From the NCBI GenBank assembly GCA_949285255.1, contig CASDXV010000006.1, positions 5,435-61,845 of the forward strand: DNA of 56,411 nucleotides, written 5' to 3'. The notes beneath the pieces were generated by a model. That model had not been told where the DNA came from, did no database searches, and worked only from the letters and a program-made list of their open reading frames with translations. This stretch comes from an uncultured bacterium (lineage in GTDB: Bacteria; Cyanobacteriota; Vampirovibrionia; Gastranaerophilales; Gastranaerophilaceae). Positions 1 to 43,270 of this stretch are shown piece after piece; position 1 is the stretch's first letter, and every line of letters begins with the position of its first letter. The translations under genes were made by a program, and so were the position numbers.

Positions 1-4
1 CAGA

Positions 5-1525
5 ATGAATCTGCGCGACCAGACAATTGAAACGGCAGCTTATTTTGTAGGAAGAGGCATTTTAACATCACAAAATCCTTTTGAAGACATTTCAGGAATT
101 GACTTTAAAGACACTTCTTCACCCGAGCTTATAAAAGAGGCACTGGAGAAAATTCCTCCGGAAACACAAGATGTTATAGCAACAGCACTGGGTACCATTA
201 AGGACTTTGGCGCAAGGGGCACAAGTTTCTTTGTAGTTAATTTTGTATCAAATTTATTCACATCAGACGACAATAGCATGAAAGCATTGAAAAAACGAGC
301 GTTTGAACTCTTTAAACAATCACTGATACAGGCAACAATCTATGAATTGTGCGACCAAACAGTTTCTGCAACCATATCAAAAGAAGCTCAGGAAACTATA
401 AAGGAAATGCAGGAAAATCTCGAAAAATATCCCGAAGTTTATAGGGTATTCATAGAAAAAGAACATGAGTTTTTTGAGCAAATAAATTTAAATACATTAG
501 ATAGCGAAGCTTTTACAAAACAATTCAAAAACAGGACATTTGTTTATAACCTGCAAAACTTTTCAATAAGCGCAGTTCAAGAATTTACACATGCCTGGGT
601 AAACAGAAAAAACTCTAAAGCTGCGGCAGAGGCTATTGCAATAAAAAAAGGCAAAGAAAAAGAAATAACAAAGAGTAAAGAAATTGACGACTGCGTAAGC
701 AAAGAAGAAAAAGAACAGATTTCTCAATTAATAAATGAAATGGATTCTTTAGTAACCGCAAAAAGCACTAAAGAAAATGAAAAAGAATTTGGCTACGGCA
801 GGATTGCAGGATATGAAGAGTTAAAAGACGAATTGACAGAAAAATTCATTATGCCTCTTGGCTTAGAAGCGGTCGGTTCATATACAACTCCGCCGCCTGC
901 TATTCTTTTTTACGGGCCTACAGGCGTTGGAAAAACTGCCATTATAAGAGCAATTTCAGAACAAGGCAAATGTTTGATGCCAAAATTTAGAGAACCTGAC
1001 AACATTGAAGAATTATCAGAAGAACTTAAAAGATTAAGAGAAGATGCCAAAAATTCATCCAGACACACCGTAGTTAAAATAGACGAATTCGACGATTTTG
1101 GCTCAGACAAAGAGGCGGCAAAAATTTTTGCCGACTTTATAAAAGATTGCGCAGAAGATAAAATAACTCTTATGCTAACTACAAACGAACCGTTAGACAT
1201 AGATGCTTCTATTTTAAGACAAACGATTAATATACCGATGTCACCACCAAAAAATGATGATTTAGAAAAGGTAATAAAATTTTATTTTGACAATTTTAGT
1301 GATGATGACTGTAAAAAAATAGCTCAAGCCATGGTAAAAAAAGCAAAAGACAATGCATATTCAAACTCACAAATAAGACAGATGTCTTATACTTTATCAG
1401 GCAGCAAAGATTCAAAAACTCCCGAAAACATGCTAGAATTAATTCAGTTAACACCTCCAGAGATTCTAAAATCAGATATTGAAAAATTTAAAAAAGAAGA
1501 ACAAAAGCTTGAGGGATTAAAGTGA
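5..1525 (+). CDS. AAA+ ATPase, cluster member A (possibly 5'-truncated by the window)
   Basis: An AAA+ ATPase of unknown role. A long helical N-terminal region (about residues 1-250) precedes one AAA+ module. The module opens with IAGYEELKDELTEKFI, then Walker A GPTGVGKT near 303-310, Walker B VVKIDEFDD near 357, sensor-1 Asn in TTNEP near 392, and a sensor-2-like NSQIRQM. The same order and wording (IAGYEE, TTN.PLDI, NSQI) occur in the ATPase at 3657-4973, so the two are paralogues. No signal peptide or clear membrane span is seen. The reading frame stays open to the window edge, so the real start may lie upstream. The next gene starts 1 bp after the stop, which suggests co-translation with a small membrane protein. 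Confidence 0.8.
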   Translation: MNLRDQTIETAAYFVGRGILTSQNPFEDISGIDFKDTSSPELIKEALEKIPPETQDVIATALGTIKDFGARGTSFFVVNFVSNLFTSDDNSMKALKKRAFELFKQSLIQATIYELCDQTVSATISKEAQETIKEMQENLEKYPEVYRVFIEKEHEFFEQINLNTLDSEAFTKQFKNRTFVYNLQNFSISAVQEFTHAWVNRKNSKAAAEAIAIKKGKEKEITKSKEIDDCVSKEEKEQISQLINEMDSLVTAKSTKENEKEFGYGRIAGYEELKDELTEKFIMPLGLEAVGSYTTPPPAILFYGPTGVGKTAIIRAISEQGKCLMPKFREPDNIEELSEELKRLREDAKNSSRHTVVKIDEFDDFGSDKEAAKIFADFIKDCAEDKITLMLTTNEPLDIDASILRQTINIPMSPPKNDDLEKVIKFYFDNFSDDDCKKIAQAMVKKAKDNAYSNSQIRQMSYTLSGSKDSKTPENMLELIQLTPPEILKSDIEKFKKEEQKLEGLK

Positions 1526-1526
1526 T

Positions 1527-1814
1527 ATGAAAATATCTCCGCTTACATCAAACAGTCCTGTAAAAAACATTAATTCTCAAAATTCTAAGGAAAAAAGAGG
1601 ATTTCAAATTGAGCCATGGGATAAGCAAATGTATTTCTTAAGTGCCCTTATAACATCAAGCGCAGGTGTAAAATTTGCAAAAAAGGGCTTTTCTGAGGCA
1701 ACACCGTTGGGCAAAACCGCAAGGGTTGCGGGCGGAGCATTTATAACTCTTGCTTTAGCTTCGGTACTTACTCTGCTTTGGAAAGTTCTTAAAAACATAA
1801 ACACGGATAAATAA
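1527..1814 (+). CDS. Small membrane protein with MKI-type leader
   Basis: An unrecognised 95-aa protein. It begins MKISPLTSNSPVKNIN, an Asn/Ser-rich start like those of neighbouring proteins. Two hydrophobic stretches follow (about 36-50 and 68-87, the latter FITLALASVLTLLW), so it is probably an integral membrane protein. It starts 1 bp after the stop of the AAA+ gene and so probably shares its mRNA. Its stop lies 3 bp from the convergent stop of the degenerate AAA+ gene on the other strand. It may be a membrane partner of the upstream ATPase (inference). Confidence 0.65.
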   Translation: MKISPLTSNSPVKNINSQNSKEKRGFQIEPWDKQMYFLSALITSSAGVKFAKKGFSEATPLGKTARVAGGAFITLALASVLTLLWKVLKNINTDK

Positions 1815-1817
1815 AGC

Positions 1818-3032
1818 TTATATTTTTTTCAAGTAATTATCTATATCACACCTGAGAAGATATGCATCTCGTTGTTTACCTTGCATCTCGCATATCATAG
1901 CGTTTATTTCCTTATAGCGTATAACATCACCATAGCGCCCTCTTTTAGCAGCATTATCCGCCATTTCACTAAGCCAGCATTTATGAATTTCAAGACGGTT
2001 TTGACTCATATTCTTAATATCATTGTCAAGATGTGCTCTCCAGCTTCTTTTTTGCCCGAGCATTAAATTATCAAGGTTCATTTTAAGAGGTATTCTCCTG
2101 TGATTGGACAAGAAAGCAGAATCAATACCCCATTGGTTGTCCGCACCAAAAACTATACTCATGGGTTCTTTGTTTTCCGACAAAGAAAATAAAAACGCCT
2201 TCATATCACCTATAGCAAAATTTGATACCCGAGCCGGATTTAAAATGTTGGAAAAATCATCTACAAACAGTATTGTCCTTTTGCCTGTCTTTTGATATTT
2301 TTCCTGAGCATACTGAAGCTCGGTATTTAATCTGTATAAAGCGTCATCCTCGTCTTTTGGAAGTTTAAATTTAACAACTCTTGCATCAAGTTCACCCTCC
2401 AGCCATTGTTCAATTTCTTTCCTTGTCTGAACATCAGAGCTTTCAAGCATTACAGCCGTTGGAATATCTTCTTGTCCGCAAGATATCGGCTCTATAAATT
2501 CACTAACAAGTACATCTTTGATTTTTGCACTTAATTCTTCTTTTTTTATTCTTTCATTATCAACTTTCTCGAGCTTTTTAAGGTCAGATTTAATTTTTCG
2601 TTCTTGTTCTTTTTTTTCTTGAATTTTTTCATTATTCATATCAAACATAAGAGCACGTATCTCTCTTATTTCAGGCTCAATAATCTTTCTAACCCTATTT
2701 TCTTTGGCAGGGTCTATAACAAGGCTCTCTATAACGGCAGGTGTCATAAGAAAAACTATCAAAGCCGCCTTGTAGAGATTTTCAACCATAGGCGAAGGCG
2801 GAGGGTAAATTTCTCTGTATCTTTCCTTAAAATACTCTTGCTCCCAGTTTTTTTTGCCCAGATATTTTTCCGCAATAGCTATTTGCTTATCACTGTAATA
2901 TCCGGATGGATAAGATTTTCCCCTAAAGCTTGTAAAAACATCACCCTTATTATCTTGTTTAAGATGATATCCGACATTACTCGTATTGGTTTTTAAAAAA
3001 GATTTATTAAGGAAAACCGGAGCTATTTTCAT
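1818..3032 (-). CDS. Degenerate AAA+ (pseudo-ATPase) with a membrane segment and FRG leader motif
   Basis: A 404-aa AAA+-like protein that appears unable to bind ATP normally. The leader MKIAPVFLNKSF runs to a TSFRGK motif (F36-R37-G38). One hydrophobic segment lies near 85-106, followed by a charged coiled-coil. The stretch KDVLVSEFIEPI aligns with KDELTEKFIMPL of the first ATPase. Where the P-loop should follow, it reads MLESSDVQTRK, with no GxxxxGK[ST]. A Walker-B-like ILFVDDFSN remains, with Asp in place of the catalytic Glu. The segment GADNQWGIDSAFLSNHRRIPL parallels TTNNPLDIPSALRSSKRMPL of the active paralogue. The gene overlaps the preceding one by 4 bp. A regulatory or structural subunit is likely. 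Confidence 0.75.
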   Translation of the reverse strand: MKIAPVFLNKSFLKTNTSNVGYHLKQDNKGDVFTSFRGKSYPSGYYSDKQIAIAEKYLGKKNWEQEYFKERYREIYPPPSPMVENLYKAALIVFLMTPAVIESLVIDPAKENRVRKIIEPEIREIRALMFDMNNEKIQEKKEQERKIKSDLKKLEKVDNERIKKEELSAKIKDVLVSEFIEPISCGQEDIPTAVMLESSDVQTRKEIEQWLEGELDARVVKFKLPKDEDDALYRLNTELQYAQEKYQKTGKRTILFVDDFSNILNPARVSNFAIGDMKAFLFSLSENKEPMSIVFGADNQWGIDSAFLSNHRRIPLKMNLDNLMLGQKRSWRAHLDNDIKNMSQNRLEIHKCWLSEMADNAAKRGRYGDVIRYKEINAMICEMQGKQRDAYLLRCDIDNYLKKI

Positions 3033-3664
3033 TTGTTTTCATCCTTTTTATTTTTATTCTTTTTATCAAATGCGATTATAGCAATACCAAGCGCAGCCCC
3101 GAGAGCAGCGAACGCAAGAATATAATTTCTCTTGCATTTTCTAAGTGCCTTACCCATATCTTGTCTTAGTTCGAAAATATGGGCATTGACGTGTTTTTCA
3201 TACAATTCATTATAATCTTTTGTAAGTCTTTCAAATGAACTTTTTGCCATAGCTACAGTTTCAGCTAAATTTTGTTCGCAATTTTTAAATTTCTCAAAAA
3301 AATGTCCTGATACTGATTCTTCCGCGAGCCGCCTTGCTTCTTCAATTCTTGGAGTATTTTCGTTTATTATATTTCTTGCAATTTGAATATTTTTCTTTAA
3401 CAACTGCACATAGGGCATTGAGTCAAAATTATCAGCCAATTCCTTTGCGGCGGATTCAATATATTCTTTATACAGTTTGCTTTTTGCCCTAACGGCAGGT
3501 ACCGACAACACTGTTCCCAGAGCAGTGCCCAAGAGAGTTGTACCGGTGAACATAAAAGGCTCTTTAGGAAGTTTTGTTTCTTTGATTTTTTCCTCATTAG
3601 ATACCTTACTTGAAGCATTTGGTATGTTAAACTGTTTAAAGGGGCTGTTTATATTATTAATCAT
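3029..3664 (-). CDS. Two-span membrane protein with central coiled-coil, AAA+ cluster
   Basis: An unrecognised protein of 211 aa. I chose ATG at 3664 (MINNINSPFKQFN) over the in-frame GTG nine bases upstream because GGGAGG lies about 7 bases before the ATG and overlaps that GTG. A hydrophobic Gly-rich segment FTGTTLLGTALGTVLSVPA comes first, then a helical coiled-coil-like stretch of about 120 residues, then a second span ILAFAALGAALGIAIIAF and a Lys-rich tail. Both ends probably anchor in the membrane with the coil on one face. It lies between the active and degenerate AAA+ genes, overlapping both by a few bases, so the three products probably work together. Confidence 0.65.
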   Translation of the reverse strand: MINNINSPFKQFNIPNASSKVSNEEKIKETKLPKEPFMFTGTTLLGTALGTVLSVPAVRAKSKLYKEYIESAAKELADNFDSMPYVQLLKKNIQIARNIINENTPRIEEARRLAEESVSGHFFEKFKNCEQNLAETVAMAKSSFERLTKDYNELYEKHVNAHIFELRQDMGKALRKCKRNYILAFAALGAALGIAIIAFDKKNKNKKDENK

Positions 3665-4973
3665 TCTGCGCACCTCCCACTATAAGCTCAACTTCGTTTT
3701 TATATTTTTTCAAACTTTCTCTGTCAATTTTTGGAAGTTCTTTTCTTATGCAGTACAACAAATCTTCCTGCGTCACATTATCACAGTGTTTTATACATTC
3801 TTTGCATATATCTTCAATTTGAGAATTATTATAAGCCCTATCCGGCAAAACAGAACAGATTTCTTTTGCAAGTTCGCATAAATCTATTTCATCCATATTT
3901 ACATTCGGGCAATCTTTCAGATAATGTTCAAAAACAAGTGCCGCATTTATTTCATTAGGAGGGTCAATTGCAACCTTTAGAGGCATTCTCTTTGAACTCC
4001 TTAATGCTGAAGGAATATCAAGAGGGTTATTTGTTGTAGCAAAAATTGTACAATGATAATCTTGTGAGCAATTCTCCAAAAATCTTTTTAGACCTTGTAC
4101 GACAGAAGATGCGCTATTCATAAACCTGTCTGCTTCATCAATCAAAATAATTGTCCTGACGCCATTTTCAAGAAAATTTTGCTGCGACATTTTAGCTATT
4201 GCCAAAAGGTTATCGTAAAATGTTTTTTCTTTGTCTTTTCTGCTTCTGGCCGTAGGACTCGGCTCTGCTTTTTTAAATTCACAATTTGCACTATGCGCAA
4301 AAGCTTTAGCAAAACTTGTTTTCCCATTGCCCGCAGGGCCAAAAAATAATATAGCGTTGGGCATTTCAACATCGTGTCCTGCCATTTCATAAGGGAGCAG
4401 ATTTATAAATCTTTCCGTCAAAAGAAATTTTTCTTCCTCATAACCCGCTATTGAATCAAAGCCTTTATGAGAATCCTTATTTTGAGACAAAATTTGCGTT
4501 TTTTGTCGTACTACTTTAGCCATAAGGAGGGCTTTTTTTACTTTCTGAAGTTCTTGTGCATCTATATTTTTTTGCTTTAACAGTTCATAATTCTCTTTTA
4601 AAAGTTCTAAATTTTCATCCTGTATTTCAAGAGCTATCTCTTGAGCCTTAAGAAATCCGCTTATTTTATAATCTTCATCTTGAAGTATTTGTCTTCTTTT
4701 TCTTGATTTAAAAAAACCGCCTACCTGAGAAAGCCTTTCTTTGCTTGCTTCTTTTATGCTTGCATAACCCTGTTCAAATCTGCTGACTAAACTATCTGAT
4801 GCCTTTTTATCATCTTCTCTTAAGAATACATCCTTTATAGCATTATAAGTTTTGTTATGCTGCTTTTTGTCATCATCTATCACTGCACAAAAAGAAACAG
4901 ACAAAGCCACACCTTTTTTTGCCAAATTATTTCTATTAACTACCTTATAACTGTTTGCAGAATATATTTTCAC
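3657..4973 (-). CDS. AAA+ ATPase, cluster member B (GTG start)
   Basis: An AAA+ ATPase of 438 aa. I chose GTG at 4973, which gives (M)KIYSANSYK like its neighbours and has GGGA 8 bases upstream. The longer reading from 5003 would need a TTG start. Helical region (about 30-170) then IAGYEEEKFLLTERFI, Walker A GPAGNGKT near 211, Walker B IILIDEADR near 272, sensor 1 TTNNP near 310, and NNSQIEDI in the lid. The Ser-Arg pair in SALRSSKRMP may supply the arginine finger. A short VSFCA at 26-30 sits where its neighbours carry F-R-G. It heads a three-gene operon with the coiled-coil membrane protein and the pseudo-ATPase. Confidence 0.8.
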   Translation of the reverse strand: MKIYSANSYKVVNRNNLAKKGVALSVSFCAVIDDDKKQHNKTYNAIKDVFLREDDKKASDSLVSRFEQGYASIKEASKERLSQVGGFFKSRKRRQILQDEDYKISGFLKAQEIALEIQDENLELLKENYELLKQKNIDAQELQKVKKALLMAKVVRQKTQILSQNKDSHKGFDSIAGYEEEKFLLTERFINLLPYEMAGHDVEMPNAILFFGPAGNGKTSFAKAFAHSANCEFKKAEPSPTARSRKDKEKTFYDNLLAIAKMSQQNFLENGVRTIILIDEADRFMNSASSVVQGLKRFLENCSQDYHCTIFATTNNPLDIPSALRSSKRMPLKVAIDPPNEINAALVFEHYLKDCPNVNMDEIDLCELAKEICSVLPDRAYNNSQIEDICKECIKHCDNVTQEDLLYCIRKELPKIDRESLKKYKNEVELIVGGAQND

Positions 4974-5059
4974 CGTCAATATCCCGTTAATATGGATATA
5001 CAAAACAAGTAAAGATATTTTTTTGTCAATACAGTTTATAAATAACTTTAAGTCGCCTA

Positions 5060-9669: not shown

Positions 9670-11154
9670 CTAACTGACAAAACCCATTCTTACTTCATCT
9701 TTTTTCTTTAGACAATCAAGCGCGCTGTCAAAATCTTCTTGAGTAAGAACAATTTTTTCTACATCTTTAATATCAAATGTACCTTGCTCCATCTTGGCAA
9801 ATATATCTTCCCTTTTGTATGCAAATTTTCTTGCTTCTTCAACAATAGCTACTATATCCGCCCCGCTTGCATTAACTTTTGAGAGTTTTTTTGCAAACTC
9901 TTGGGGTGAAAATTTTTCATCAATTTTTTTATTTTTAGTATAAATGTTAAATATCTCCAGACAACCCTTTTCATCAGGCAAAGGAACATTTATGGTCTTA
10001 CCGAATCTTCCCGAGCGCACAATAGCTTCATCCAAGAGTTCTTTCTTATTTGTTGCCGCCATAACAAAAATTCTGCAGCCGTCTTTTTCTATATCGCTCA
10101 TAAGGGTTAAAATCTGATTTACCACTTTATCATCATGTCGGGTAGAATTATCGCCCTCTCTTTTTCTTGCTACAGCGTCAAATTCATCTATAAATATCAC
10201 ACAGGGCTGATTTTCTCTTGCTTCCTCAAAAAGCTTACGCCAGTTAGCTGCAGATTCTCCAATCCACTTTGACTCAAGTTCAAGTCCGTTTAGTTTAATA
10301 AAATGCACGCCTGATTCATTTGCTGCAGCCTGTGCTATCATTGACTTTCCGGTACCGGGTTCACCCTCTAAAATAACCCCGTGGTTAACTATTTCAAAGG
10401 CTTCAGGGTATTTTATAGGGAAAATAACCGACTCTTTTATTTCTTTTATTGTTTTATCCAAGCCGCCAATGTCAGAAAATTTTATCTTCTCGGATTGTTT
10501 TCTTATGCTTTTTGTTCCCATTTTCTCAAGGTTGCTTCTGTTAATTTTATAAACAGCCTCCTGTTCAGAGCGAGAAAAATCATGAATTTGTGTTTTTGAT
10601 TTTATCAAGTCACCAATTGAAGCGTTTTCGTTTTTTACAACCCTAAAAGAAACTTCTTTGTCATCAAAAACAAAAGTAGATTCGGGAGTAATTTTAAGAG
10701 ATGCGCCTTTATTCATCCTGAGTCTTTTTTTACCCTCAAGCCGATAAATTGGGGTATCGGAAAGATTTTGCATGTAAAAATCACCAAAATGATTTCTTGC
10801 AATTGCAATATTACCGTCAAGATTTTCATCTTCCACAAAAAATATTCTGGATACTATTTCGGGATAAGTTTCAAGATTTTCCAGAAAATCTTTTTTTACA
10901 CCATCAATATCCTTGCCTACAAGCAAAACATCATCATCTTTCATAAAATTAAGAGCTGTTGAAACTTTATTTTCAAAAGAAAAATATCTGCTATCACAAG
11001 CGCCTCTAAAATTTATAAGAGAGCGATTATAATTTTTATCCACAAGTAAATCACTTTTAGTGCCCCTGTGCAAAGGATTTGAACTGTTAAAAGAATTGAT
11101 TTTACTTATAGGAGTAGTATACAGACTAACTGCTGACAATGATTTTATTTTCAA
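9670..11154 (-). CDS. AAA+ ATPase with possible N-terminal FHA domain and FRG leader motif
   Basis: A 494-aa classic-clade AAA+ ATPase. The leader MKIKSLSAVSLYTTPISKIN runs to LINFRGAC (F49-R50-G51). Residues about 110-175 look like an FHA domain: IAIARNHFGDFYMQNLSD, then GASLKI and a closing FVFDDKEVSFRV. The AAA+ core has FSDIGGLDKTIKEI, Walker A EGEPGTGKS near 263, Walker B VIFIDEFDAVAR near 318, and a full second region of homology ending VRSGRFGKTINVPLPDE. That is closer to Cdc48/FtsH-type modules than to the 1-5 kb ATPases. No protease domain or membrane span is present. The start is TTG at 11154, with GGAGG 5 bases upstream. Substrate unknown. Confidence 0.85.
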   Translation of the reverse strand: MKIKSLSAVSLYTTPISKINSFNSSNPLHRGTKSDLLVDKNYNRSLINFRGACDSRYFSFENKVSTALNFMKDDDVLLVGKDIDGVKKDFLENLETYPEIVSRIFFVEDENLDGNIAIARNHFGDFYMQNLSDTPIYRLEGKKRLRMNKGASLKITPESTFVFDDKEVSFRVVKNENASIGDLIKSKTQIHDFSRSEQEAVYKINRSNLEKMGTKSIRKQSEKIKFSDIGGLDKTIKEIKESVIFPIKYPEAFEIVNHGVILEGEPGTGKSMIAQAAANESGVHFIKLNGLELESKWIGESAANWRKLFEEARENQPCVIFIDEFDAVARKREGDNSTRHDDKVVNQILTLMSDIEKDGCRIFVMAATNKKELLDEAIVRSGRFGKTINVPLPDEKGCLEIFNIYTKNKKIDEKFSPQEFAKKLSKVNASGADIVAIVEEARKFAYKREDIFAKMEQGTFDIKDVEKIVLTQEDFDSALDCLKKKDEVRMGFVS

Positions 11155-33504: not shown

Positions 33505-35934
33505 ATGGAAAAGTATCTCAGCTTTGATGAAATACATAAAAAAATTATTGCCTCCTGTAAACTTGAAATAGAAAACAAATACATTGATACGGTAGGCAAA
33601 AAGACTACTTTTTCAAAATTTGTTTTAAGCACTCTTTATACGGTTTTAAAAAAAATAAATAAAACCGAGCGCCACAGGGTAGAAAAACTTATCACACATT
33701 TTGAGCAGTATCACATTGACTCACCTCACTCAAGAGCGCAGAGCATAGAGCTTTTAGCCGATACTTTTGCTTATTTTAAAAAATTAATAAAACCTCAACC
33801 TCGAATAAAGAAAAAAGAGGACATACCGGAGACAAAAAAACCCTACAGTGATGATATATCTCAAATTGAAGTTCAATTTGTAAAAGGTGTCGGGCCAAAA
33901 ACAGCGCTGTTATTTAACAAATTGAATATCTACACTGTAAAAGACCTCCTTGAATACTACCCCAAGCGCTATGTAGATTATCAGGGAAGAGTAAAAATAT
34001 CCAATCTTTCAATAGGCGAACAGGTGACTGTCTTTGCAACAATTAAAAAAGTCAGCGCCTATTTAACCCTTAAAAGGCTCACTGTGCTGAATTTAACTAT
34101 ATCAGACGGCACAGGCGAGATTACTCTTAGCTTCTTTTACAAATTAAAAAACAGAAAAATGCTTGAAAGATACAAAGCTCAATACCCTCAAGGCTCAAGT
34201 GTTATAGTTTTTGGAACGGTAAAGAGAGATTCTTACACAAATAAAATCACTATAGATAAGCCTGAAGTTCAGGTTATGACTTGTGATTTTTGTTATGAAG
34301 ATGATGAGCTTATAAGTTCAGGCAAAGTTGTGCCGATTTATCCGCTTACGGAAAACCTTAACTCAAAAACCCTCTCTAACGCCATAAAAAGCGCTGTTGA
34401 AAAGTACTGCCCAAAAATGCCCGACCCTCTGCCGCAGTTTATTAAAGAAAAATACTCACTTATTGACAAAAATGAAGCAGTAAGAAAAATTCACCTGCCA
34501 AAGACAAGACAAGAAGTGGAAGAGGCCAGATACAGGCTTGTTTTTGAAGAGTTGTTTACCCTGCAGATGAACTTAGCTCTTGTTAGAGAGGCAAACAGAA
34601 AAAATACTTCAATTCAACTGAAAATAAAGCAAGACGGGCTTGTGAGAAAATTCATAGAAAGTCTGCCTTTTGAACTTACAAATGCGCAGAAAAATGCGGT
34701 TGATGAAATTATAAATGACCTAAATTCAAAAGAACCGATGCAAAGGCTTCTGCAAGGTGATGTCGGCAGCGGGAAAACTGTTGTAGCCTGCATTATGCTA
34801 CTATGTGCCATAGAAAACGGCTATCAGGGAGCAATTATGGCGCCTACGGAAATCCTTGCAAGTCAGCACTACAAAAACTTTATCCAGTGGCTGACCCCGC
34901 TAAATCTAAGCGTTGGGCTATTTTTAGGTAAACACGGTACAAAAGTAAGAAATGATATGCTGACGTCTTTAAAAAACGGACAAATGCATATTGCAGTCGG
35001 CACTCACGCTCTTATTCAAGAGGGGATTGAGTTTTCAAACCTTGGTGCGGTTGTAATAGATGAGCAGCACCGCTTTGGTGTAAAGCAGCGCTCAAAACTT
35101 TTAACCAAAGGTGAATTTCCTCAAATGCTCACAATGACAGCTACTCCAATCCCAAGAACCCTTGCCCTTACTATGCATGGGGATTTAGACATTACAACAA
35201 TCGATGAACTTCCGAAAGGCAGACTGCCTGTAATAACAACTCTTGTCGGCGCTCAGGGCAGAAAAGAGGCTTACAACCTTATTAAAGAGCAGATTAAACT
35301 CGGACATCAGGCATACATTGTGTACCCTCTTATAGATGAAAGTGAAACAATAAGTGCTAAAAACGCCACTCAAGAGGCTCAAAAGCTGCAAACGGGCGAA
35401 TTTAAGGACTATAAAATAGGACTTTTGCATGGAAAATTAAACGCAAAAGAAAAAGAGCAGGTAATGCTTGATTTTAAAGAGAAAAAATATGACATACTTG
35501 TTTCTACAACAGTTGTTGAAGTAGGTGTTGATGTACCCAACTCAACGGTTATGATTATAGAAAACGCAGAGCGCTTCGGACTTTCTCAACTGCACCAATT
35601 AAGAGGGCGGGTAGGGCGTTCTGACAAACAATCTTACTGCATACTTGTCAGCACATCAGCATCAAAACAGGTAAGAAACAGACTAAAAATAATGACACAG
35701 ACAAACAACGGCTTTGTTGTAGCTCAAAAAGACCTTGAACTGAGAGGCCCGGGGGAATTTCTCGGCACAAGACAAAGCGGCATACCTGATTTTGGACTTG
35801 CTGATATTGTAGGGGACGTAGAAATCCTTGAAAAAGCAAGAGAGTGTGCGCTTGATTTTGTCAAAAACTATGATATTGACGACTTTAAAGGCTTGAGGGA
35901 AGAAATTTTAAAACACAACCTCTTTAGAGGCTGA
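33505..35934 (+). CDS. recG: ATP-dependent DNA helicase RecG
   Basis: An 809-aa branched-DNA helicase. It has an N-terminal extension of about 115 residues, as in cyanobacterial RecG, then the wedge OB domain (VKGVGPKTALLFNKLNI onward), Walker A GDVGSGKTVVA, DEQH box VIDEQHRFGV, the TMTATPIPRTLALT motif and motif VI QLRGRVGRSDKQSYC. It remodels stalled forks and Holliday junctions. Its 3' end overlaps the convergent DUF1822-like gene by 11 bp. Confidence 0.97.
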   Translation: MEKYLSFDEIHKKIIASCKLEIENKYIDTVGKKTTFSKFVLSTLYTVLKKINKTERHRVEKLITHFEQYHIDSPHSRAQSIELLADTFAYFKKLIKPQPRIKKKEDIPETKKPYSDDISQIEVQFVKGVGPKTALLFNKLNIYTVKDLLEYYPKRYVDYQGRVKISNLSIGEQVTVFATIKKVSAYLTLKRLTVLNLTISDGTGEITLSFFYKLKNRKMLERYKAQYPQGSSVIVFGTVKRDSYTNKITIDKPEVQVMTCDFCYEDDELISSGKVVPIYPLTENLNSKTLSNAIKSAVEKYCPKMPDPLPQFIKEKYSLIDKNEAVRKIHLPKTRQEVEEARYRLVFEELFTLQMNLALVREANRKNTSIQLKIKQDGLVRKFIESLPFELTNAQKNAVDEIINDLNSKEPMQRLLQGDVGSGKTVVACIMLLCAIENGYQGAIMAPTEILASQHYKNFIQWLTPLNLSVGLFLGKHGTKVRNDMLTSLKNGQMHIAVGTHALIQEGIEFSNLGAVVIDEQHRFGVKQRSKLLTKGEFPQMLTMTATPIPRTLALTMHGDLDITTIDELPKGRLPVITTLVGAQGRKEAYNLIKEQIKLGHQAYIVYPLIDESETISAKNATQEAQKLQTGEFKDYKIGLLHGKLNAKEKEQVMLDFKEKKYDILVSTTVVEVGVDVPNSTVMIIENAERFGLSQLHQLRGRVGRSDKQSYCILVSTSASKQVRNRLKIMTQTNNGFVVAQKDLELRGPGEFLGTRQSGIPDFGLADIVGDVEILEKARECALDFVKNYDIDDFKGLREEILKHNLFRG

Positions 35935-42331: not shown

Positions 42332-43270
42332 TTATAGCCCGTGTTCATCAAACCATCTTTCCCAGTCGGTTCTTTTATCTGAAGGGCCGTCATCATCAAC
42401 GTATCTTACTTCCTCGGGTTCTTCTTTGTTATCAACAGTTACGCCAAAGAAAATCAGTTTATAGTCGTCAAAACGCGACCTTAGGCTCTTTGGAGGTCCG
42501 AAGAACTTATTTTTATGTTCTCTTAAATACCTTAAAATATCCGCAGAGTCGAACTCTTGTTCTAAAAGAGCATAATACGGGCTTTTAGGGCCAAGTTTCT
42601 GAACACTCTTAGATACAGAGGGTTTTATTGTCCTTGTTGTTTTATCATTGTATATTTTATATGCAAACTCTCTTGCCTCATCCTCATCTGTAATTGGTTT
42701 ACCATATCTTTCCAAAGACAGAAGATTCATAGCACGGCCTATATCGTCTTTTATGAGTGCTCTCATATATGGCATGCGTTGCGCTTCTCTCATTTGAGCT
42801 GTTTTTGGGTTAATGTAATCATCTTCATTAACTCCCTCAAGTTTTTTACTGTCATTCCAAAGTCCAGCTATAATTTCTTCAAATTCTTGACAGCTGGGAT
42901 AGCGAACAACTCCTTCCTTTTCTGGATAAGTTGAGGCTGCCGCACAGCAGAGATTAAAGTATTCTTTCATGCATCTGTCTAAATCCCAGCTTGTTGGCAT
43001 AGCGTGTCCTGCAGCGTAAGCAAAAGACCTGGAGTATATTGCAAGGTTGTGTACAATTCCTTCTTTACCCTTATTAATAACCTCCGGTCTAAAAATAACA
43101 ACCACTGGTTGTTTTCTTCTGCCAAAAGCAGGATTTGTTTTTACAAAAGTATCTTGGACATTATTTTTAAGAACGTTTGTACTTTGATAATTGTTAATGG
43201 GTGTAGCATAATTTGAACCGGCATAGATATTTTTTGCAGGGGAATATGCCGTCTTAAAATCAACTTTCAT
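42332..43270 (-). CDS. Hypothetical protein with MKV leader and AFGRR motif
   Basis: A 312-aa protein that I do not recognise. The leader is Asn/Tyr/Ser-rich (MKVDFKTAYSPAKNIY...) and ends in the motif NPAFGRRKQP (F49-G50-R51), like the FRG leaders of the AAA+ genes at 1.8 and 9.7 kb. The rest is soluble, rich in helices, with acidic tail EEPEEVRYVDDDGPSDKR. No membrane span or catalytic motif is seen. It has its own promoter (TTGTAT, 17 bases, TAGAAT on the minus strand) and an AAGGA ribosome site. Confidence 0.65.
   Translation of the reverse strand: MKVDFKTAYSPAKNIYAGSNYATPINNYQSTNVLKNNVQDTFVKTNPAFGRRKQPVVVIFRPEVINKGKEGIVHNLAIYSRSFAYAAGHAMPTSWDLDRCMKEYFNLCCAAASTYPEKEGVVRYPSCQEFEEIIAGLWNDSKKLEGVNEDDYINPKTAQMREAQRMPYMRALIKDDIGRAMNLLSLERYGKPITDEDEAREFAYKIYNDKTTRTIKPSVSKSVQKLGPKSPYYALLEQEFDSADILRYLREHKNKFFGPPKSLRSRFDDYKLIFFGVTVDNKEEPEEVRYVDDDGPSDKRTDWERWFDEHGL

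Follow-up and report, generated by a model that had tools for sequence, protein, structure and literature searches.

A mobile six-gene cassette of Gastranaerophilales encodes two AAA ATPases and a predicted ATPase-dead AAA partner

In the Torsin-LAP1/LULL1 system of the eukaryotic endoplasmic reticulum and nuclear envelope, the active Torsin subunit is not known to carry an arginine finger of its own, and FtsH is known both with inactive FtsHi-type partners and as a hetero-hexamer. LAP1 is reported to be an AAA protein of atypical fold that is devoid of nucleotide motifs but strictly conserves the arginine of the finger position, and the proposal is that it activates Torsin as part of a mixed ring (PMC4358337). 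Here, we describe a mobile cassette of six genes, A to F, in which two classic AAA ATPases (F and B) are encoded together with a predicted ATPase-dead AAA protein (E), and discuss how it may work and what it may serve. The cassette lies at the left end of the window, by which we mean the whole stretch of 56,411 nucleotides analysed, from an uncultured member of the Gastranaerophilaceae (Cyanobacteriota; Vampirovibrionia; Gastranaerophilales; GenBank assembly GCA_949285255.1, contig CASDXV010000006.1, positions 5,435 to 61,845 of the forward strand; G000:C6:5435-61845 below). It consists of two adjacent operons, A-B-C on the + strand and F-D-E on the - strand, and five of its reading frames were confirmed within window positions 1-5003 (lengths in amino acids, aa):

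2..1525, + strand: gene B, its C-terminal 506 aa (counted from the ATG at 5), predicted second active AAA ATPase (Pfam AAA, 3.5e-13)
914..937, + strand: Walker A of B (GPTGVGKT), read from the sequence
1527..1814, + strand: gene C (95 aa), with a single membrane segment predicted at residues 67-85
1818..3032, - strand: gene E, 404 aa, predicted ATPase-dead AAA protein (hhalign to F, structure model with Foldseek, substitution rates)
2418..2456, - strand: residues 193-205 of E, the stretch replacing the P-loop
2253..2267, - strand: degenerate Walker B of E (FVDDF, residues 256-260)
2097..2099, - strand: arginine 312 of E, in the arginine-finger column
3029..3673, - strand: gene D, 214 aa from a GTG (ATG at 3664), predicted C-terminal membrane segment
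3657..4973, - strand: gene F, 438 aa from the GTG at 4973, predicted active AAA ATPase (Pfam AAA, 4.6e-16)
4317..4340, - strand: Walker A of F (GPAGNGKT)
4134..4145, - strand: Walker B of F (LIDE)

A preliminary description of this stretch had recognised ATPases with membrane partners, one ATPase being degenerate, in a unit of five genes; the observation as a whole is confirmed, but the actual unit is larger, as gene A (446 aa) lies upstream of B in the same contig, left of the window. A run of N at G000:C6:5406-5434, an assembly gap, directly precedes the left window edge and interrupts B. This gene is a single frame of 810-833 aa in four relatives (G013, G014, G007 and G002), and it is probably intact in the organism, because by BLAST the contig pieces to its left and right share an overlap of 15 bases when placed on G013. 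The frame of F runs over 448 aa from a TTG at 5003, and the GTG ten codons in gives 438 aa and a protein beginning MKIYSANSY, which resembles the starts of its paralogues. The genes are closely packed: the overlaps or gaps of 1-8 base pairs (bp) first described stand for B-C (gap of 1 bp), C-E (gap of 3 bp) and E-D (overlap of 4 bp), but D and F overlap by 17 bp, or by 8 bp only if D is read from its internal ATG. Acidic D-x-D-G-D repeats lie near the C terminus of A, where EF-hand matches were found in one of three copies scanned (that of locus L037); a model of A, with a mean predicted local distance difference test score (pLDDT) of 46.4, was too poor for a structure search. A membrane domain in B was rejected, since hydropathy gave no support in two of three copies tested.

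Profile-profile comparison (hhalign) bears out the proposal that the three AAA proteins are paralogous, relating F to B with a probability of 100 (E-value 7.9e-47), the 404-aa E to the 438-aa F with 98.7 (1.7e-16) and E to B with 96.5 (8.1e-10). Both F and B match Pfam PF00004 and, as had been noticed, both keep Walker A and Walker B, so that they have the features of classic AAA ATPases; the nearest structures to F by sequence in the PDB are p97/Cdc48 (1.9e-33), NSF and Vps4. The window copy of E has no PF00004 match at an E-value of 1 or lower and only an ATPase_2 match at 0.28, the L034 copy matches PF00004 at 0.02, below the cut-off, and Vps4 is matched weakly in the PDB by profile (4.1e-4 and 7.2e-4). 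The fold of E, which had been named beforehand as a point on which the observation should stand or fall, was modelled with AlphaFold from 13 sequences: the mean pLDDT is 69.1, the AAA core lies mostly at 80-90, and residues 1-39 and 75-105 are poorly modelled. With this model, Foldseek returned the Vps4 of the archaeon Metallosphaera first (E-value 2.0e-6, probability 1.00, template modelling score 0.49 by target length), and the model thus predicts an AAA fold for E.

E has lost its ATP motifs. Where F has GPAGNGKT, E has AVMLESSDVQTRK; the preliminary description had read MLESSDVQTRK in place of the P-loop of this protein (1818-3032) and DD instead of DE, and both readings hold, E having VDD at the place of the D-E Walker B of F. 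The P-loop pattern GxxxxGK[ST] occurs in none of the 35 proteins that match E best, compared with 37 of 38 for F (a set that includes three AAA proteins from outside these operons, at L067, L092 and L094) and all 17 for B, and the second Walker B acid in 13 aligned copies of E is D, K or N, never E. Judged by Walker A and Walker B, E has no ATP site of its own and is, on sequence, an ATPase-dead AAA protein. The arginine-finger column nevertheless holds an arginine in 12 of the 13 aligned copies, some of them nearly identical to each other, and in the remaining copy, from L079, the column is flanked by arginines. F retains both Walker motifs together with arginine 339, invariant in seven copies, and this arginine aligns with the first arginine of the p97 motif GRFDR, presumably the arginine finger of p97.

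E is under purifying selection. Between G000 and G013, the ratio of nonsynonymous to synonymous substitution rates (dN/dS) is 0.085 for E, 0.104 for F, 0.061 for A, 0.128 for the window part of B and 0.208 for D; between G007:C59 and G002 it is 0.124 for E, 0.137 for B, 0.453 for D and 0.334 for C, and between FR900475 and G235 it is 0.154 for a fused D-E. D and C evolve faster than the other cassette genes. That E is a decaying, functionless pseudogene of F, as the loss of both ATP motifs and a stop within its matched stretch in G156 might suggest, is contradicted by these three pairs, by the conserved arginine and by the presence of E in all 18 loci described below, and we regard it as scarcely credible. 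The membrane segment that E was said to have gained is predicted by hydropathy in the window copy and in L033; it is not conserved, being absent from L034, L036 and L037.

The locus resembles Torsin-LAP1 in that an AAA protein without nucleotide motifs and with a kept arginine stands beside an active one, and in that a partner is tied to the membrane (here by prediction). It differs in that F keeps an arginine finger of its own, E is nearest to Vps4 by fold, and the unit belongs to bacteria, comprises several genes and is mobile; neither LAP1 nor Torsin was among the structures listed from the PDB profile and Foldseek searches with E. Because F keeps its own arginine, the likeness is one of working and not of membership. 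F also matches p97/Cdc48, NSF and Vps4 over the AAA domain, and E folds like Vps4 in the model, whereas the present proteins are set apart by a single AAA domain, an N-terminal region of their own, a predicted dead partner subunit and the cassette setting. Membrane-linked AAA proteins and mixed subunits are shared with FtsH/FtsHi, but no HExxH zinc-protease motif is present in B, E or F of 14 cassettes, on which ground an FtsH-type protease was rejected. A commonplace AAA protease or chaperone that had been duplicated and given accessory subunits, for quality control of the FtsH kind, would agree with F and B being classic AAA proteins; given the missing motif and the mobile, patchy nature of the cassette, it is highly improbable. 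BREX and Ssp are likewise multi-gene, patchy and mobile and lie in the same islands, whereas the cassette proteins go unrecognised by PADLOC models beyond weak P-loop similarity.

A profile of A is matched in 31 of 288 genomes of the family, in 12 of its 41 genera. Among the hits of at least 220 bits, 16 of 17 have B adjoining A and both F and E on the other strand, and at the remaining one (G003:C47) the contig ends inside B. Two weaker hits (G107 and G222) also carry the full set, giving 18 loci in 17 genomes in which both operons occur together, as had been anticipated for related genomes; other weaker hits lie elsewhere, some near other AAA operons. The convergent layout described for the window is found in 15 of the 18, the other three (G156, G150 and G222) being divergent, and the tail-to-tail gaps measure -4 to 44 bp in 13 convergent loci (12 of the 18 and FR900475). 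Exceptions within the set are few: A and F are broken in G002, A lies in two frames in G222, stops interrupt the matches of A and E in G156, no C was seen in G107, and in G150 the contig stops past B.

In five of the 18 loci, D and E share a single frame of 604-622 aa, recognised by matches to the D profile in L098 and L100 and by place and hydrophobic segments in L102, L103 and L104, and a single D-E frame is also present in L084, beyond those five. Owing to these fusions, a physical pair of the two proteins is plausible. Across 14 cassettes, the distances obtained for A, B, E and F are correlated with one another (r 0.81-0.975; for each gene pair, 0 of 999 permutations as high), as expected under joint inheritance. 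In a sample of 292 genomes from across the phylum, 38 had matches of E type, every one of them in the window's own order, the share of the sample lying outside that order not being stated. A scan of named genomes gave 14 loci, 12 of them titled Gastranaerophilales or Galligastranaerophilus, one Fusobacterium sp. CAG:439 and one uncultured bacterium.

Other operon types also contain an active AAA protein beside at least one AAA-related protein without a P-loop (L038, L039, L040, L041, L042, L043, L046 and L106). This recurrence suggests a class of machines that pair P-loop-less with active AAA proteins. A conserved protein of 615-691 aa lies near several AAA operons (L037:14922-16769, L046:8924-10999 and L106:5403-7475), and its L037 copy has no PHROG or Pfam match.

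The cassette is horizontally mobile and has recently moved between genera. The DNA of F is 94.5-99.8% identical among G003, G245 and G077, which represent three genera; in the same genomes, a gene that we take to be PheT-like is 60.3-71.7% identical and a second chromosomal gene (window 33505-35934) 59.7-70.6%. A contamination of 7% is listed for G003, which leaves the G245-G077 pair unaffected. G003 and G077 share a stretch of about 7.5 kb that begins some 100 bp ahead of F and extends some 70 bp past the start of A. G000 and G013 carry the cassette at one place, with synonymous divergence (dS) of 0.68-1.0 in five cassette genes compared with 0.12-0.19 in two flanking genes, and their identity climbs to 94-100% near the start of F. 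Between FR900475 and G235 only F has diverged (dS 0.60, compared with 0.04-0.09), and single genes are therefore exchanged too. An empty site is seen in a sister genome, G008, where flanks of 93-94% identity enclose about 320 bp in place of the cassette of about 7.9 kb; within about 8 kb lie brxA, brxB and brxC (the nearest at about 2.8 kb), an HEC-02 candidate pair and an integrase, so named by its likeness to an L032 protein matching phrog_216. At this site (L164, G008:C1:118000-137900), HipA is also encoded nearby, and the gap contains a fragment resembling an acetyltransferase. Neither a terminal repeat nor a target duplication was established at the ends of the mobile unit. An interruption of an autotransporter gene by the G077 copy was considered and dropped, as a single query is matched by both flanks, which might be paralogues lying side by side.

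Both phage and defence genes are found around the cassette. At L037 it follows matches to phrog_310 (Mu-type transposase), phrog_296 (DNA transposition protein), phrog_286 and phrog_836 (late activator), and at L036 its neighbours include a neck protein (phrog_26), a DNA methylase and a head protein (phrog_220); the Mu names at these two loci are our own assignment. A phmmer survey places Mu-like genes in six of the 18 loci (L036, L037, L098, L100, L101 and L112) and, outside the 18, in L084, L089 and L091. Restriction, Ssp-like, PLD or HipA genes are present in seven (L031, L032, L036, L098 as a fragment, L100, L104 and L112). Near the window's own copy no Mu-like gene was seen, and its left flank holds HipA. 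At 1e-15, 115 flank proteins match 102 PADLOC families and 115 random G000 proteins match 9, where the families overlap and the number of proteins behind either figure is not given; at 1e-10, PHROG families number 88 in the flanks and 56 in the control, whose hits, where shown, are mostly single cellular-type families. In viral contigs, F has four weak AAA hits.

Several neighbouring genes deserve mention. A further AAA protein (window 9670-11154, - strand; PF00004, 8.2e-40), with an MKI start and an INFRG motif, is encoded 4.7 kb from the cassette and is missing from the matching place in G008. In G177 (L101:9339-12077, - strand), A shares one frame of 912 aa with an N-terminal part resembling a Mu transposase. 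An 871-aa neighbour of the cassette at L036:3153-5768 has a match to an ADP-ribosyltransferase domain (PF03496, 8e-19).

Many cassette proteins have an MKI-like start, followed within 70 residues by an ISFKG-like motif. This leader is present in 24 of 31 A, 24 of 35 F and 20 of 36 E proteins, whose internal windows show the motif in 6 of 131, 7 of 167 and 15 of 162 cases, respectively; the motifs were chosen after reading these proteins and the members are related, so that Fisher values were set aside. It is found less or not at all in B (3/17), C (3/8) and D (2/11), and a leader common to all six was rejected. Elsewhere it is carried by 33 of 406 sampled G000 proteins (compared with 68 of 1299 internal windows) and by 49 of 331 other flank proteins. 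A stricter form, with D-x-F-x-K before the motif, occurs 24 times within the first 110 residues and nowhere else in 854 proteins, in 21 A-type and three E-type proteins. A genome-wide signal was rejected too, F-x-G being N-terminal in 24 of 361 G000 proteins compared with 4-6.5% per inner window. The motif is carried by proteins outside AAA operons, at L119:2035-5322 and at other loci, and one such leader-bearing protein is, we presume, glycogen-synthase-like. A 312-aa protein of the window (42332-43270, - strand) has a DTFVK...AFG leader and no Pfam match.

The architecture is well supported by gene content and adjacency, the fold, lost motifs and arginine of E, selection, co-inheritance, fusion, transfer and neighbours. 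From it we infer ring assembly, action in trans, membrane topology, a target and a role in conflict: the mobile cassette would encode a membrane-tethered heteromeric AAA machine in which E completes the active site of F in trans, in the manner put forward for LAP1 and Torsin, most likely for phage exclusion or a similar conflict, a proposal to which we give about an even chance. F would be the working ATPase, and E would join or cap its ring and supply an arginine finger in trans; D would anchor E to the membrane, and B would be another working AAA protein, distinguished by its large N-terminal region. A, with its acidic repeats, would be a partner, and C would be a small protein of the membrane. 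F (and B) would use ATP to remodel or remove a membrane-associated target, and the cassette, apparently carried by Mu-like prophages and defence islands, would exclude superinfecting phage or take part in another anti-phage response. Because of this carriage, conflict between mobile elements appears the likeliest use; its mobile and patchy nature and the nearness of restriction, BREX and prophage genes place exclusion of phage or other mobile elements first and a host-lifestyle role next. The interpretation given in the preliminary description, that of a dedicated machine made of an active and an inactive ATPase, is partly supported.

A number of observations weigh against this proposal. F retains an arginine finger and so does not necessarily require E. 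Twelve of the 18 loci have no Mu-like gene within the stretch fetched, and some of the PADLOC hits in the flanks are phage-type methylases. No relatives of A, B or E were found in viral contigs, for which reason carriage by live phage was rejected, and none of A in phage records. The PADLOC 2023 models give only weak P-loop matches for B and F (best 4.1e-6) and none for A, C, D or E, and membership in a known defence system was rejected accordingly; literature titles, covering few subscription journals and no bioRxiv, yielded no named system that matches the cassette. Proteins that do not belong to the cassette carry the leader motif as well, and this could agree with a role in the host. In a bolder version of the proposal, which we hold to be doubtful, the cassette would be a bacterial counterpart of Torsin-LAP1, borne by mobile elements, and would exclude phage by a new machine: a dead AAA protein tethered to the membrane would switch on a live one, and the short N-terminal peptide found on the main parts (an MKI-like start and I-S-F-x-G within about 70 residues, preceded in A by D-x-F-x-K) would serve as a common address or docking tag.

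The same AAA machine might instead serve the gut life of the host, by envelope remodelling, surface-protein handling or attachment, and be merely spread by prophages and islands, a case of lysogenic conversion with A as a calcium-binding partner. The acidic repeats of A and the EF-hand matches at L037 would suit this, as would a leader motif common to some chromosomal proteins and the persistence of the cassette where few or no phage genes remain; the restriction of EF-hand matches to one of three copies, the patchy distribution of A and the company of restriction, BREX, Ssp-like and HipA genes speak against it, and we consider it a tentative alternative, on the unlikely side. Less likely still is a module of late genes by which a Mu-like phage manages its own assembly, lysis or takeover of the host. 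In L036, L098, L112 and L084, A does lie some 50-170 bp behind a gpG-like gene of its own strand, but in these very loci F-D-E runs against the phage genes. In G077 and at sites of the G008 type, moreover, the cassette or the empty site lies away from phage genes, the cassette persists where the phage genes found are few, and none of A, B and E was found in the viral contigs.

If the proposed machine exists, the cassette would be a compact and transferable example in which a dead AAA subunit has been conserved alongside live ones, and activation in trans would become approachable in a simple bacterial system. It would also be a candidate phage-exclusion system in a little-studied gut lineage.

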